Origin: Coriolopsis trogii | Lineage: Eukaryota; Basidiomycota; Agaricomycetes; Polyporales; Polyporaceae | Direction: 5' to 3' | NCBI GenBank assembly: GCA_020543525.1 | Contig: JAHYIO010000036.1 | Location: 806,001 to 870,000, forward strand | DNA length: 64,000 nt | Part shown: positions 19,394 to 27,813 of the stretch, one piece after another | Layout: every line of letters starts with the position of its first letter | How positions within the stretch are numbered: the first letter of the stretch is position 1 | Program-made: the position numbers and the translations under genes | Notes under the pieces: model-generated | What the model was told of the DNA's origin: nothing | What the model saw: only the letters and a program-made list of their open reading frames with translations | Database searches by the model: none

Positions 19394-19930
19394 CGGGAGG
19401 ATTTATAGGACCATTTGATGTTGTATTGTATCTTCGACTGCAAATGTGCTATATCTTTGCATTTGACGTGCAGCGAAACCTTTTGACTCTAGCGCGAAGC
19501 CAGTCGTAAATTATGAAAGTCAGGAGCATTGCTCTCATAGCAAGCTGTCCTTCGAAGGGCAACACCTCCGCGAGCGCCGAGTGGCGATTTCAAGTGACAC
19601 TGGTGACACGTGCTGATTCCCACATCACGTGCCTGTCTACCATGTCACAACCTTTCCCAAATCCCTCCGGATAGAACCGAATAATATTACGTCAATAGGA
19701 TGTCTTATTACCGTCCTGATGACATCTATTAAGTATGGGTATTTCAGAATAAAAGCCGATGACTTAGCAGTAACCCGACGCATTAGGTTGCATTCCGACG
19801 CATTAGGTTATATTCGGATTATTAGTAACTTACCTCCTAATAGTCCATATTGAATCCAGACATTATGTCTATATCTAGAGAATACATGACTCCATCTAGA
19901 TATGTAAATCATCATCAGGATGTGGTCATC
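19394..19930. repeat. AT-rich segment with short direct repeats at mosaic edge
   Basis: About 540 bp without a gene. From about 19640 the sequence becomes AT-rich. It contains cccaaatccctccggata (about 19657) and two direct copies of cgacgcattaggtt about 20 bp apart (about 19775-19810). A similar CCGGAT-bearing block lies at about 26970-27140, beyond the gene-fragment mosaic. It may be a terminal or solo piece of a transposable element. No terminal inverted repeat could be paired. Confidence 0.4.
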
Positions 19931-19967
19931 GAGTCTGGTCGGTCGAAGATCTCGTTGGGGGCGGCCT

Positions 19968-22265
19968 TCAGGAGCTGCCTGTCTTCAGGTCGTACGTTGC
20001 ACGTACCAACGGGTTGAGGAGGACAGGAGCCTCGGGGTCTCTGGAGTAAGGCAGCGCATCCTTGACCTTGACGAGGTTATTCTTCAACAACATTTCCGTC
20101 CATGTAGCACAGGCGCTGACAGTGGTGGTTCTTCTGCTCGTACACCTCGTATACAGACGGCTCGAGAGCATCGACAAGGTAGCGCAGGTGGATGACCATG
20201 CAGGTAGCACCAACTTGTCCGAACCCAAAGATAGACTGTAGAAACAGTGCCATTAGCGATAACGGATGCATAGTCAAACTTCGAAACGACTGACCATGAC
20301 ACCTGCACGGATGCCATCGGTGTGTATCGTCTTCGACGGGAAGATCAAGTACGTGTGCTGCTTGAACAACGCATCGATGTTGCTGCGAATACTATCAGTA
20401 GGGGGAAGAGTGTGTGCTATTCACGATACGTACTCGGCGTTGCGGTGGCCCGGGATGACGCTGGAACCCACGCCTTGCAGGAGACCAGCGAGTTGCCAGG
20501 CTGCAGAACCACCCTTCGAATGTCCGCAAAGGCTCTTCTGCGCCATGATCGGAACAGCGTTGCCAGGCGTGCGACCGATGTTGGTGAACACGTCGTTCCA
20601 GATGTGCGTCTCGTTCTTCTCCTGAGAGTGGTATAGCTCGTCAGCTGATATCGAAACGATATTGTTTCGCCACTTACGTCCGTGGCTGTACTGGTACCGT
20701 GTATCGAGAGGACACCCAAGTCATCTGCGGTGAGACCCCAGACAGCAAGGGCACGACGCAACGGTGCGATGCGAGGGTCGACACCTTCTAGCATACCGTA
20801 CGTCGCGATTGCATCCTTCTCCTGGCGAGCAGCCTCCTTCTCAATGTCGGCGATGCGGGTAGCAACGTACTCGTCGGCTACATTCCCATTGCTCTTCCGG
20901 TACTCAAACTCGTCCTGAAGCAGTTGACGCTCGTTCTCCAACCATTGTGCGATCTGCTTGCCGCAGAACGAAAGCTGTCGAGAGCGATATGCAAGGTCGA
21001 GAATGGAAAGTGGGTGTCTCGCGTGCACTTCACGAGCAATGGTGAGTGCGCCGCGATCTGGAGCAGGGACCGAACGCCCAGCTTTGTCACTGACGAGGGG
21101 TGTAAGTGCGGATCGTCAACATACTTCGAAATCAGGACTCACGTTGACGTCGAGGTGAAAGCAATAACATCGCGAATGGGGCATCCAAGCTCAATAGCAG
21201 TCTTAGCACTCATGAGGACTTGTACACCTGTTCCTTGCGATTCCATAAACTGCAAACAATCATGAGTACAGCGCATATTATGGCGACCAATGAACATACT
21301 TCTGAACGCGCGTAGTCGTTGCAGGGCGAGACATCTCTGTTGGCTCACGGCCCATTGCGAAGTCGGTTTCGGCATTGCTGGTCGCCTTCATGTTCGTGAA
21401 CTCGTAAGAGCCCTCTTCACTCAGGTCGTCGAAGCCTCCCGCTAGCATGACCTTGGCCTTGCCGGACAGAAGCGTATCGCAAGCGATCTCGATGGACTGA
21501 AGAGTAGTAGCACTAGAGGAGATCGTCAGTGGATGTAGTTCCTAAAGTGAGGCTCGACACGAACCAAGCACCAACAGGGATCTTGACAGGACCACTCGAA
21601 GAGAGCAGAAGGAGGCTAACCCATCCTGTGGTGGTGTTGATGAAACTGAGACGAGCGCGTTAGTAGATACATGTATCTGAGTGGAGTGCATGACTCACGT
21701 CTTCTGCAGGATATCGTTCTGAACGTCCTTTTCGTCGCGGCGATCCATGAACATGCGAGCCATACTCTCGACACCGCCCATACCACTGCCGATGCTCGTG
21801 CCGACCTCCGACGGGTGCATGTAGTTGTATAGTTCGTATACGTCAGTGATACCAGACATATTGAGTGCCTCAGCAGCACGTACAAGAGCCCAGAGGGTGG
21901 CGCGGTCGGTCTGTGCGATGATGTCTTCAGGGATACCGTCGTGACCAGCGTTCCATCCGATGGGGATCTGCCCAGCGATGGTACGGCTGAGGTTGAATAC
22001 CTGAAGCACGAAGACCTGAGCACCCTTCTTGAACTAGACGAACCACTTCGCCGGTCGGTCCAGAGTCGCACTCGTCACCGTGCTCAGGCCTCAACCTTAT
22101 AGCACAGTCCAGAGACATTACAACACTTACCGATGATGCGGCCGCCCGCGTGCGCAAGAACGTCCTTCTCATACAGACCACGGATGTCCTTGTTGTCGAC
22201 AGGCTCGCCCGACTGGCGTCAACCCAGCCGAAGTACAAGCTACCATCCTTGAGGCGACCGCCCAA
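19968..22265 (-). pseudogene. fatty acid synthase alpha fragment, ketoacyl synthase region
   Basis: The translation follows the fungal fatty acid synthase alpha chain from just before the ketoacyl synthase domain to the boundary of the 4'-phosphopantetheinyl transferase domain. Recognisable blocks in order: DGSLYFGWVDA, DNKDIRGLYEKDVLAHAG, FNLSRTIAGQIPIGWNAGHD, MHPSEVGTSIGSGMGGVESM, the catalytic-cysteine region GACATTLQSIEIACDT, GREPTEMSRPATTT, MESQGTGVQVLMSAKTAIEL, LGVLSIHGTSTATD and MAQKSLCGHSKGGSAAWQ. Several proper introns remain. Breaks are evident: a shift between GWVDA and GEPVDNKD, about 45 residues missing after LAHAGGRI with a further one-base shift near 22040, and a one-base shift in the last exon near 20110. 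The fragment stops at DLKTGSS without the PPT domain. All upstream domains (MAT, ACP, most of KR) are absent. It cannot encode a working synthase. Confidence 0.85.
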
Positions 22266-22313
22266 ACTGCCTCAGATGCACTTGCCAGACTTTGACTTTG
22301 TGGATGTAGTAGA

Positions 22314-25690: not shown

Positions 25691-25892
25691 CACCGGTTGT
25701 TTCGGTGTTGGTGCGGGCTTATTCCTCGGCGACTTGGGTATCTGGAGGCAATTTGTGTGATGTGTAGGAGTGGCGGCGGTGGGAGTCTCTGGAGTCGGCG
25801 TCGGTGTCGGCTTCTTCAGGATCGGCGTGCCCATAGGAGGAGACACATGGACGGGGTCGGTGAGGGTGGTGCGGCGGCGGATGCGAACAACA

Positions 25893-26935
25893 TGGGGCTC
25901 TGTTCGTCTTTCCAAAGTCGTTGCCTGGCTACAAAACCCTGCCCACATCTCCCTGCCCACTGACTCTCCAAGGCCTGCAGGGGGGAACAGGGCGGCGTTC
26001 ACCATGCTCCTTCACCGCGAAATGGGCCACACCGATATACTCATTGGCTCTTCGTCTGCATCCGCTCGCGATCCGCCTCCCGATTGGGCCGGAGGACCCA
26101 TTCTGGGCGGTCATACGAAAGGTGCAGCAGGTCGAGCGGGAGGCCGAAGCGGATAGCGTGTCATACAAGTCCATCATGCGTGCTCTGGGAAAGGACAAGG
26201 CGGACACCGTGGAGGGATCGCGGCCTCTCTTCCGCGTACGGTTCTTCGACGCGACCGACTCTCTGCAAGAGCACTTCCTTTGCACCACCAGCCTCACCTT
26301 GATTGTCACCATCTTCGTCAGGCCACAGCAAGAATCGAGTCGAGCCTCTATCGTGCCGCACATCTGTGCTGCTCCGTCGCGTGGCTGCGAACCCCCTGGC
26401 ACAGGTCGGATCCGTCCCGCTGCTGACCCCTCCCCGGCACGCGAAGCTGTCCAACCCGACCGCCGATCTGAACTGGTGCGACTTCGACGGCGCCATCCCA
26501 CACGTATTCTCCCGGAATGCAAGGCAGTGGCCCGATCGCACCTGCGTCGTCCAGTGCATCCCCTCTGCAAGTCTTGATGAGCGGCAGGAGAAGCGCACAT
26601 TCACGTACAGCCAGAGCTTGCACGCGTCCAACATTCTCGCGCATCACCTGCTCCAGAACGGGCTGCAGAGAGAGGAGGTCGTCACGGCTTACGCCTACCG
26701 CAGCGTCGAGCTGGTCGTGGCCATGCTCAAGCCCGGCGCGACGTTCTCAGTCATCAACCCGGCGTACCCGCCTTCGAGGCAGACGATCTACCTGAAGGTC
26801 GCTCAGCCTCGTGCGCTCGTCGTCCTTAAGGATCGTCCTTAAGGGTGCGGGAAGGATTTCGCCCTCCGTTCGCGACTTCATCACCAGATCCCCTCGCTTC
26901 GAAATGCCTTCTTCGTCGGTGACGTGCTAACGAAG
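25893..26935 (+). pseudogene. LYS2: Lys2 alpha-aminoadipate reductase, N-terminal fragment
   Basis: Alpha-aminoadipate reductase catalyses the ATP- and NADPH-dependent reduction step of fungal lysine biosynthesis. The fragment opens with RLSKVVAWLQNPAHISLPTD, the N-terminal region of fungal Lys2. A deletion follows PRPAGGNR, then HTDILIGSSSASARD; a shift leads to LAIRLPIGPEDPFWAVIRKV, YKSIMRALGKDKADTVEGSR and LFRVRFFDATDS. A second shift gives RRVAANPLAQVGSVPLLTPP, TADLNWCDFDGAIPHVFSRN, RTFTYSQSLHASNILAHHLL and GATFSVINPAYPPSRQTIYL, the start of the adenylation domain. Similarity fades around SPSVRDF. The rest of adenylation, carrier and reductase domains are missing. It uses three reading frames and is clearly inactive. 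Confidence 0.85.
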
Positions 26936-27813
26936 CGTGACTGCCTGCTTCTGCAGTCTCTGACTGTCCCAATTTTCCCTAAATCGCTCCGGATATGTCC
27001 GGATTGAATTAGCCTAAAATACCTCCGGATGGGGCTCAGATGCACAGTTAGAGCCGAAAATACCCATCTTGATGCGCATTGGGAGGGTACTTAGATGCGA
27101 GAATGAACATCTGGATGCTTGGCCCTTCCGGATACGGTAATGAAAGCTCTGACATTGGCTGCCAATGTGCGCGTCATCATGTAAGGCGAGACCGAGACGC
27201 AGCGGGCGGTGTCGTACTTCCTCATCCCCTCAATGACCAGGGAAGTGACGTTCTTGTCTAATGGATGGCGCCAGCTGGTTGCCTTGGAGGACGACCTAGC
27301 TATACTTGGGGTAGTCATGGTTGGCCATGCATCTCACCGATCGCAATCCGCTCACGCACCTTGCTGCTGCTGAGCGTGCACTCTCTCTCTCCAATGCCAA
27401 CGAAGTGTATCCTACTGTAGAGCGCTGCATCCCGGTTGCTGCGTGCTGGTGCTGCGTGCTGGCGGTCAGAATATAGTGGTCGTCCTCCTGTTGAAGTGAT
27501 TGACTGCAGTGGGTGTCACAGGAGAACCAGGTCACATAGTGTGTATTCCAGGGCCTGGCAAGGTACAGCGAAAGCATAGAAAAGACATGGACACCAATAC
27601 CAGCCCATAACTATTGTTGGTTAGAAGAGAGTAGAACGCGTGGTAGCGGAACCGACACAATGGCTTACGTAATGGTCTAGCATTCGCCGTTTGTGACACT
27701 GATGGACGGAAAGCATGCAGCGTTGTTGGCAAACCCCAAGACACAGATTGCCAAGAAACAATAACGATTCGTTGCGAAGACAAATATGAGCATACAACCG
27801 ACAGGTGTTCACA
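26936..27813. other. intergenic region with CCGGAT-rich repeat block
   Basis: No gene recognised. Between about 26970 and 27140 the motif CCGGAT recurs at least five times in AT-rich surroundings. The stretch ctaaatcgctccggata closely resembles one at about 19657 on the other side of the gene-fragment mosaic, in the same orientation. The rest (27150-27810) shows only short, unconvincing open frames. Confidence 0.4.

Follow-up and report, generated by a model that had tools for sequence, protein, structure and literature searches.

The window examined here is a stretch of 64,000 nucleotides from the 38.8-Mb genome of the basidiomycete Coriolopsis trogii (C33:806001-870000; positions without a contig prefix are those of the window). 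It contains, from position 19643 to 38783, a block of 19,141 bp that is in all likelihood a transposable element, in which a Plavaka transposase gene, a TET/JBP-like dioxygenase gene and an orphan gene lie among pieces of host genes. A first-pass annotation had described a mosaic of unrelated gene pieces around a TET/JBP-like gene, ending at 27140; every piece that it named is present, but the element is about 2.5 times longer than that unit, and the mosaic is only its left part.

A search of the same genome with pieces of the window, such as the annotation had called for, revealed a rearranged second copy of the mosaic-bearing element on contig C1, with exact ends. In pairwise alignment the main blocks of the two copies are 90-96% identical, mostly about 95%, and the homology spans window positions 19642 to 38783, reaching 11.6 kb past 27140. 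Because base 19642 is part of a target-site duplication, the start of the element was set at 19643; the C1 copy (C1:3044211-3022842) measures 21,370 bp. Both copies end in imperfect TGTC...GACA inverted repeats, TGTCACAACCTTTCCC on the left against TGTCCGACCTTTTCCC on the right when read inward, with 12 of 16 positions alike, and both are flanked by 2-bp target-site duplications, CA/CA around the window copy and GA/GA around the C1 copy. The earlier observation that the two edges of the mosaic share a CCGGAT-bearing sequence stands as far as the likeness goes (72% over 47 nt), but not as an argument for shared edges, since only the sequence on the left coincides with an end of the element.

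The C1 copy is inserted in a tubulin-tyrosine-ligase (TTL) gene (L007, C1:3044212): joining its flanks gives an open frame across the site, in which a 64-aa stretch matches Pfam TTL at 2e-7. A genome-wide search for TTL gave a single match, 0.4 kb from this insertion, and the element has therefore split the sole TTL gene detected in the assembly. Across the joined flanks of the window copy, open frames are at most 56 codons long, so that no gene is evident there. The two blocks might instead be the product of a segmental duplication or of ectopic recombination, with the transposase as a bystander, and the existence of two copies only, mostly about 95% alike and both about 20 kb long, would agree with this; we consider it very improbable, given that the identity ends exactly at the inverted repeats, that both sites have a 2-bp duplication, that the C1 joint restores the host reading frame, and that the transposase is uninterrupted and under selection. 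An assembly artefact, which would have spoken against the annotation, is unlikely because the two copies sit on different contigs and are flanked by different dinucleotides.

The blocks of the transposase gene contain no stop over 816 codons in either copy. Three of the 86 genome matches to the Pfam Plavaka model (PF18759) fall within the element (E 8.5e-8, 9.0e-8 and 2.3e-5), two of them in the C1 copy and one in the window copy, and by tblastn a Lentinus brumalis Plavaka protein of 854 aa can be aligned over residues 65-854 in both copies, in blocks parted by short, intron-like gaps in which the stops sit; the exception is one C1 block that is out of frame, the same stretch being covered by a separate in-frame block. 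The best match of the transposase is from Cerioporus squamosus (54% identity over 48% of the query), and the closest protein relatives found for both the transposase and the TET-like protein belong to the Polyporales. Of the 79 columns in which at least 95% of 60 homologs agree, six differ in one or both copies, one of them as a gap. In transposases of the CMC/CACTA clade the catalytic residues are separated by C(2)C and H(3-4)H motifs; a CPxC pattern, possibly the first of these, is found in both copies and in five of the six homologs shown, the sixth being gapped. Since a full-length Plavaka (CACTA-clade) transposase is encoded, the element is a Plavaka DNA transposon and not a Helitron. PlavakaA elements, of a family placed within the CACTA clade, are described as having TGT..ACA ends and 2-bp duplications (PMC12730594, excerpts), and these hallmarks are present in two of two copies. 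We are thus confident that positions 19643-38783 represent a cut-and-paste transposon of the Plavaka type with PlavakaA-like ends, which encodes its own transposase, a divergent dioxygenase of predicted TET/JBP type and an orphan protein.

Helitrons encode a Rep-helicase, lack both inverted repeats and target-site duplications, and are known as gene catchers, while the Kyakuja-Dileera-Zisupton (KDZ) elements are the usual TET-bearing transposons of these fungi. Either could in principle have carried the fragments, the one for its gene-catching habit and the other for the KDZ matches that lie a few kb from Tet_JBP matches in this genome. None of the 36 genome matches to the KDZ transposase model (PF18758), however, falls inside the window or the C1 copy, where Plavaka matches are present, and no Pfam match to a Rep or helicase was found among the 20 open reading frames submitted (131 are listed). 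The element moreover ends in inverted repeats with a duplication of 2 bp, against target-site duplications of 8 bp in Dileera and 7 bp in Kyakuja, for the families described (PMC12730594, excerpts), and a KDZ or Helitron carrier is accordingly the least credible of the alternatives that we weighed. The Helitron and recombination-hotspot options of the annotation are not supported; the apt comparison is with a Plavaka element, of the CACTA clade, that holds host fragments acquired by transduplication. Elsewhere in the genome, Plavaka remnants with near-equal scores were noted 8-32 kb from contig starts or ends (C9:31533, C20:2404448, C21:8191 and C34:19631); these are perhaps subtelomeric.

Captured pieces make up about 8.0 kb of the window copy (summed alignment blocks; Table 1). 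They come from seven donor loci on four contigs, with the parents surviving: the genes for fatty acid synthase (FAS) alpha, the uncharacterised C33:2020 protein, a heat-shock transcription factor (HSF), Lys2 and an adenylyltransferase-like protein, the C6 Myb/SANT gene, which we take to be SNT1-like, and a 2.1-kb stretch of C3. Six are represented in both copies, and the C3:2969627 piece in the window copy only. As in Pack-type elements, host pieces with surviving parents thus lie inside the element ends and are common to the copies. The identifications of the annotation were borne out for FAS alpha (minus strand; PDB match at E 5e-30, parent on C33, 93% identical over the main block) and Lys2 (plus strand; TIGR03443 at E 5e-60, parent on C25), and its two head-to-head fragments proved to be parts of the C33:2019932-2020999 gene (minus) and of the C3:602600-603028 heat-shock-factor gene (plus). 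Its proposal of capture at the DNA level, introns included, agrees with the FAS piece, the one in which introns were looked at: 2.1 kb align as a single block to parent DNA in which the coding frame is split among several exons.

Table 1. Features of the window copy and its immediate surroundings. Parents are given as contig coordinates.
Feature	Position	Strand	Remark
Target-site duplication, left copy (CA)	19641-19642		Copy comparison; right partner 38784-38785
Left end and subterminal region, begins TGTCACAACCTTTCCC	19643-19972		Elsewhere found in C1 copy only
Fatty acid synthase alpha piece	19973-22266	-	Parent C33:1598119-1600548; C1 copy retains parent sequence to C33:1597706
TET/JBP-like 2-oxoglutarate (2OG)-Fe(II) dioxygenase gene, HVD...H motif	22267-24431	-	Homology-supported exon blocks 23707 to 22323; start codon and first exons provisional
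Uncharacterised host gene (C33:2020), first half	24432-25249	-	Parent C33:2020157-2020999
Heat-shock transcription factor piece, nested in C33:2020 capture	25250-25655	+	Parent C3:602600-603028
C33:2020 gene, second half	25671-25897	-	Parent C33:2019932-2020156, adjoins first half in parent
Lys2 (aminoadipate-semialdehyde dehydrogenase) piece	25896-26961	+	Parent C25:884963-886799, internal deletions
190-bp MITE-like repeat, inserted in Lys2 piece of window copy only	26965-27154		Not an element end
Lys2 piece, remainder	27158-27260	+	
Nicotinate/nicotinamide nucleotide adenylyltransferase-like piece, 118 bp	27316-27433	-	Parent C33:1486699-1486817
Orphan gene, exon blocks 29983-29159 and 28809-28200	28200-29983	-	Purifying selection
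Myb/SANT-domain gene (C6), start	30944-31037	-	Parent C6:1110668-1114860; much more retained in C1 copy
2.06-kb piece, 95% identical to C3:2969627-2971729, window copy only	31035-33093		C1: 669 bp instead
C6 Myb/SANT gene, rest	33092-33936	-	
Plavaka transposase gene, 11 exon blocks read	34271-37320	-	Homology; 5' end provisional
21-bp tandem repeat, 4.6 copies, close to right end	38524-38619		
Right end, inward reading TGTCCGACCTTTTCCC	38768-38783		Copy comparison
Target-site duplication, right copy (CA)	38784-38785		

Identity between piece and parent ranges from 83 to 96% (blocks of at least 59 bp), and capture has therefore probably been repeated; the differing constraint on the parents blurs the order of events. 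The HSF piece interrupts the C33:2020 piece at a point where the parent is continuous. Overlaps of 3 bp were seen at three joints, two of them deletions in the window copy and the third on the left of the C3 piece (read by eye, chance level uncomputed), and the other joints show no clear overlap; for animal Pack-TIR elements a median microhomology of 2 bp is given where one is present (PMC8277862, excerpts). Repair of internal gaps with template switching could leave such nesting and joints. In the model proposed for plant Pack-CACTA elements (PMC8903248, excerpts), two nearby insertions are mobilised together with the DNA between them, and the placing of Plavaka in the CACTA clade lends this local hopping some appeal. 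It fits less well here because the pieces are internal, stem from distant loci (seven donors on four contigs) and include one nested in another where the parent is continuous, and we regard it as unlikely.

The ratio of nonsynonymous to synonymous substitution rates (dN/dS) between the window and C1 copies, with exon frames chosen by homology, separates the genes of the element from the captured pieces. It is 0.24 for the transposase (816 codons, 43 synonymous and 38 nonsynonymous differences, p 3e-10), 0.13 for the TET-like gene (367 codons, 9 and 4, p 4e-4) and 0.24 for the orphan (477 codons counted by stepping over a break in the C1 frame, 22 and 18, p 1e-5). Five captured windows, pooled, give 0.87 (664 codons, 27 and 71, p 0.55) and differ from the transposase (p 7e-4), the TET-like gene (p 0.004) and the orphan (p 0.003). 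Single pieces gave 0.71 for FAS, 1.14 for C33:2020 (1.09 in a further window), 0.96 for Lys2, 1.16 for SNT1 and 0.32 for HSF (p 0.13). Excluded were windows that lost the frame, spanned introns or contained stops, in FAS (0.49, p 0.08; 0.50, p 0.23), Lys2 (0.41, p 0.28) and SNT1 (0.43, p 0.057), for which windows in the parent frame were used instead. The three genes therefore appear to have been useful to the element as it produced the two copies, and to have been kept by selection on the element lineage, while the captured pieces look like passengers with no detectable selection.

The orphan gene has no Pfam match up to E 10, and none of 7996 scored candidate homologs reaches E 0.001 with a concatenated query of uncertain splicing; two CxxC pairs were read by eye in its protein.

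The TET-like gene was read in six exon blocks with no stop in either copy, and 11 of the 12 protein matches of the spliced product cover 81-100% of the query at 46-54% identity. These 11 homologs, from Earliella, Ganoderma, Lentinus and Daedaleopsis (Polyporales), are all named hypothetical, and of the 81 columns invariant among them three differ in the element copies, one as a gap. The spliced protein has no Tet_JBP match at E<=10. For homolog P0001, an Earliella protein with about 51% identity to that of the window, the predicted model has 21 PDB structure matches at E<=0.001, all of them to NgTET, CcTET or CMD1, and scores by VIA-align 18.4 with CcTET, 16.6 with TET2, 15.9 with NgTET and 13.6 with CMD1, against at most 11.1 with other 2OG enzymes. 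By fold, then, the TET/JBP assignment of the annotation is upheld, and the protein would be a TET/JBP-type double-stranded beta-helix dioxygenase.

Of the TET types distinguished in fungal transposons (AG, PE and PU), PE is marked by an HxE in place of HxD and AG by an Asp at the position of CcTET Asp337 (PMC12730594, excerpts). The present family departs from PE and AG: the window protein has HVD and all 11 homologs have HVD or HAD, and Cys stands at H+11 in 11 of 11; the family has N at H+5 and C at H+11 where CcTET has Gly331 and Asp337 (ungapped counts). A TET tree gave the window protein no supported placement. Weaker relatives of the gene were found at four places in the genome, three of which (L067, L069 and C4:2147269) lie 2-4 kb from KDZ matches, which suggests a TET-like type common to different transposon superfamilies; two of these KDZ-adjacent relatives have equal scores and probably represent a single element in two copies. 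Three of the four loci were fetched, and all three have the HxDxxN...C spacing of the window protein; one of them, L067, matches Tet_JBP at E 0.0034, below the curated cut-off. A weak Tet_JBP match was also noted at L041 (C30:2055388), about 6.6 kb from a Plavaka match at C30:2062194; this locus is possibly another TET-bearing Plavaka.

That the gene is an ordinary host dioxygenase, captured like its neighbours and with no role in the transposon, is suggested by the two captured fragments that flank it and by the purely hypothetical naming of its 11 best Polyporales homologs. We nevertheless judge this improbable: no other close copy exists in the genome and hence no host parent was found, the gene is under selection where the captured windows are not, single genomes hold several divergent members of the family (Lentinus tigrinus ALCF2SS1-7 has four), and three of the four weaker relatives are within about 4 kb of KDZ matches.

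The transposase core (34501-37000) is AT-rich, with a GC content of about 0.40, though under purifying selection, and five 500-bp steps across it have a CpG observed/expected ratio of 0.17-0.31. The remaining steps from 17 to 42 kb give 0.59-1.24 and the entire window 0.97; five of five other Plavaka stretches sampled gave 0.98-1.11, and ten KDZ or TET stretches 0.84-1.19. The frequency of CpG transitions relative to other C/G transitions between the copies, calculated with no host duplication as control, lies at 2.5-5.3 among the captured pieces. For the transposase it comes to 3.5-4.4 (core and 3' part), for the TET-like region to 2.7 and for the orphan region to 1.4, while the right end gives 1.9 and the left subterminal region 0.6. 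These figures hint that parts of the element have undergone CpG methylation and deamination, but the low CpG content of the transposase gene would also be expected had the gene come from another lineage.

The composite element suggested by the annotation, one that mobilises host pieces together with a DNA-modifying enzyme, is supported as a reading, with the enzyme as a putative DNA modifier, by the second copy, the ends, the target-site duplications, the transposase and the selected genes. A more specific reading seems to us quite possible, and we advance it tentatively: an autonomous PlavakaA-like transposon, still mobile, in which error-prone repair of the interior serially collects host fragments, and which owes its protection to a TET type outside the described AG and PE hallmarks (HxDxxN, invisible to Pfam) that also spread among the KDZ elements of the same genome. 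In the main reading, the transposase would move the element through recognition of its TGTC/GACA ends; following excision or breakage of a replication fork, a gap inside the element would be copied anew, and repair synthesis may then jump to unrelated loci, the fragments being joined with no or few bases of homology. The TET-like enzyme would oxidise methylated bases on the element and so counter silencing.

Several points weigh against these readings. There are just two copies, the element ends depend on one comparison, and two matching dinucleotides are expected by chance about once in 256; the genome is that of one strain, in which neither an empty allele nor an excision was observed. The placement with PlavakaA was made by the ends and not by a transposase tree, and capture by gap repair is a step that we infer from the joints. 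The Pfam model Tet_JBP (PF12851) misses the TET-like gene, which is not among its nine genome matches at E<=1e-3, and no PDB sequence matches the protein; the link to TET is structural, through an AlphaFold model of homolog P0001 with a mean pLDDT (predicted local distance difference test) of 65.6. A profile comparison with the Tet_JBP stretches of the genome gave a probability of 14.6% (E 0.0018), which we take as weak, the alignment covering the HxD and second-His regions. Finally, the C1 versions of the captured windows contain two stops, against none in those of the window, and the orphan frame is broken in the C1 copy.

At the right edge proposed in the annotation lies the 190-bp repeat, which begins TGTCCC, ends TGACA, occurs at 10 other places in the genome (93-99% identical) and is missing from the corresponding site of the C1 copy. 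Its candidacy as a Plavaka miniature inverted-repeat transposable element (MITE) was not upheld, as flanking dinucleotides match in none of nine distinct copies (eight others and that of the window). Outside the element, a 685-aa open frame on the minus strand (55433-57490) has no Pfam match at E<=0.01.

In the open-licence literature on Plavaka, fungal gene capture and transduplication we found TET-bearing transposons, a histone-bearing hAT and Helitron cargo, and no gene-capturing Plavaka, of which the excerpts of PMC8290104 and PMC6431247 make no mention. The earlier view of the element as undescribed thus holds, within the literature searched, for the combination of TET, gene capture and Plavaka, but cannot be extended to TET-bearing transposons as such or to gene capture at large. 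In one survey the TET-bearing Plavaka families found are all PlavakaB, in the Polyporales TET was found in Kyakuja only, and an association of Plavaka with TET implied by Iyer et al. for Fomitopsis pinicola and Trametes versicolor was not recovered (PMC12730594, excerpts). With the family described here, the contest of fungal transposons with DNA methylation would come to include a subfamily missed by the standard domain model, and such TET genes may therefore be under-counted; the CpG-depleted yet selected transposase core makes the idea of escape from methylation testable.

Among known systems, PlavakaA shares with the present element the PF18759 transposase, the TGT..ACA ends, the 2-bp duplication and the occurrence in mushroom-class fungi (PMC12730594, excerpts), to which the present element adds TET-like and orphan genes as well as host fragments of about 8 kb. 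From the TET/JBP proteins of other fungal transposons (AG, PE and PU types, CcTET) its own family differs in having no match to Pfam Tet_JBP, from PE also in having HxD and not HxE, and from CcTET in the residues at H+5 and H+11. The histone-H3-bearing hAT of Dothideomycetes is likewise a fungal DNA transposon with transduplicated host sequence, but it carries one coding sequence and belongs to another superfamily and another fungal class (PMC6710886, excerpts), whereas in the present element seven loci are represented and the FAS piece has kept introns. The Helitrons of Pleurotus ostreatus are basidiomycete transposons with foreign genes, but move as rolling circles (PMC4289320, excerpts). 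In the Pack-CACTA and other Pack-TYPE elements of plants, too, CACTA-clade ends enclose pieces of several loci; these are non-autonomous, whereas the present element keeps its transposase gene (PMC8903248, excerpts). Capture of DNA from several loci, best known from such plant elements, is thus indicated for a DNA transposon of mushroom-class fungi too, here one that retains its own transposase and a TET-like enzyme, and its two copies, being at different stages in that one keeps sequence which the other has replaced, let the steps of capture be read directly.

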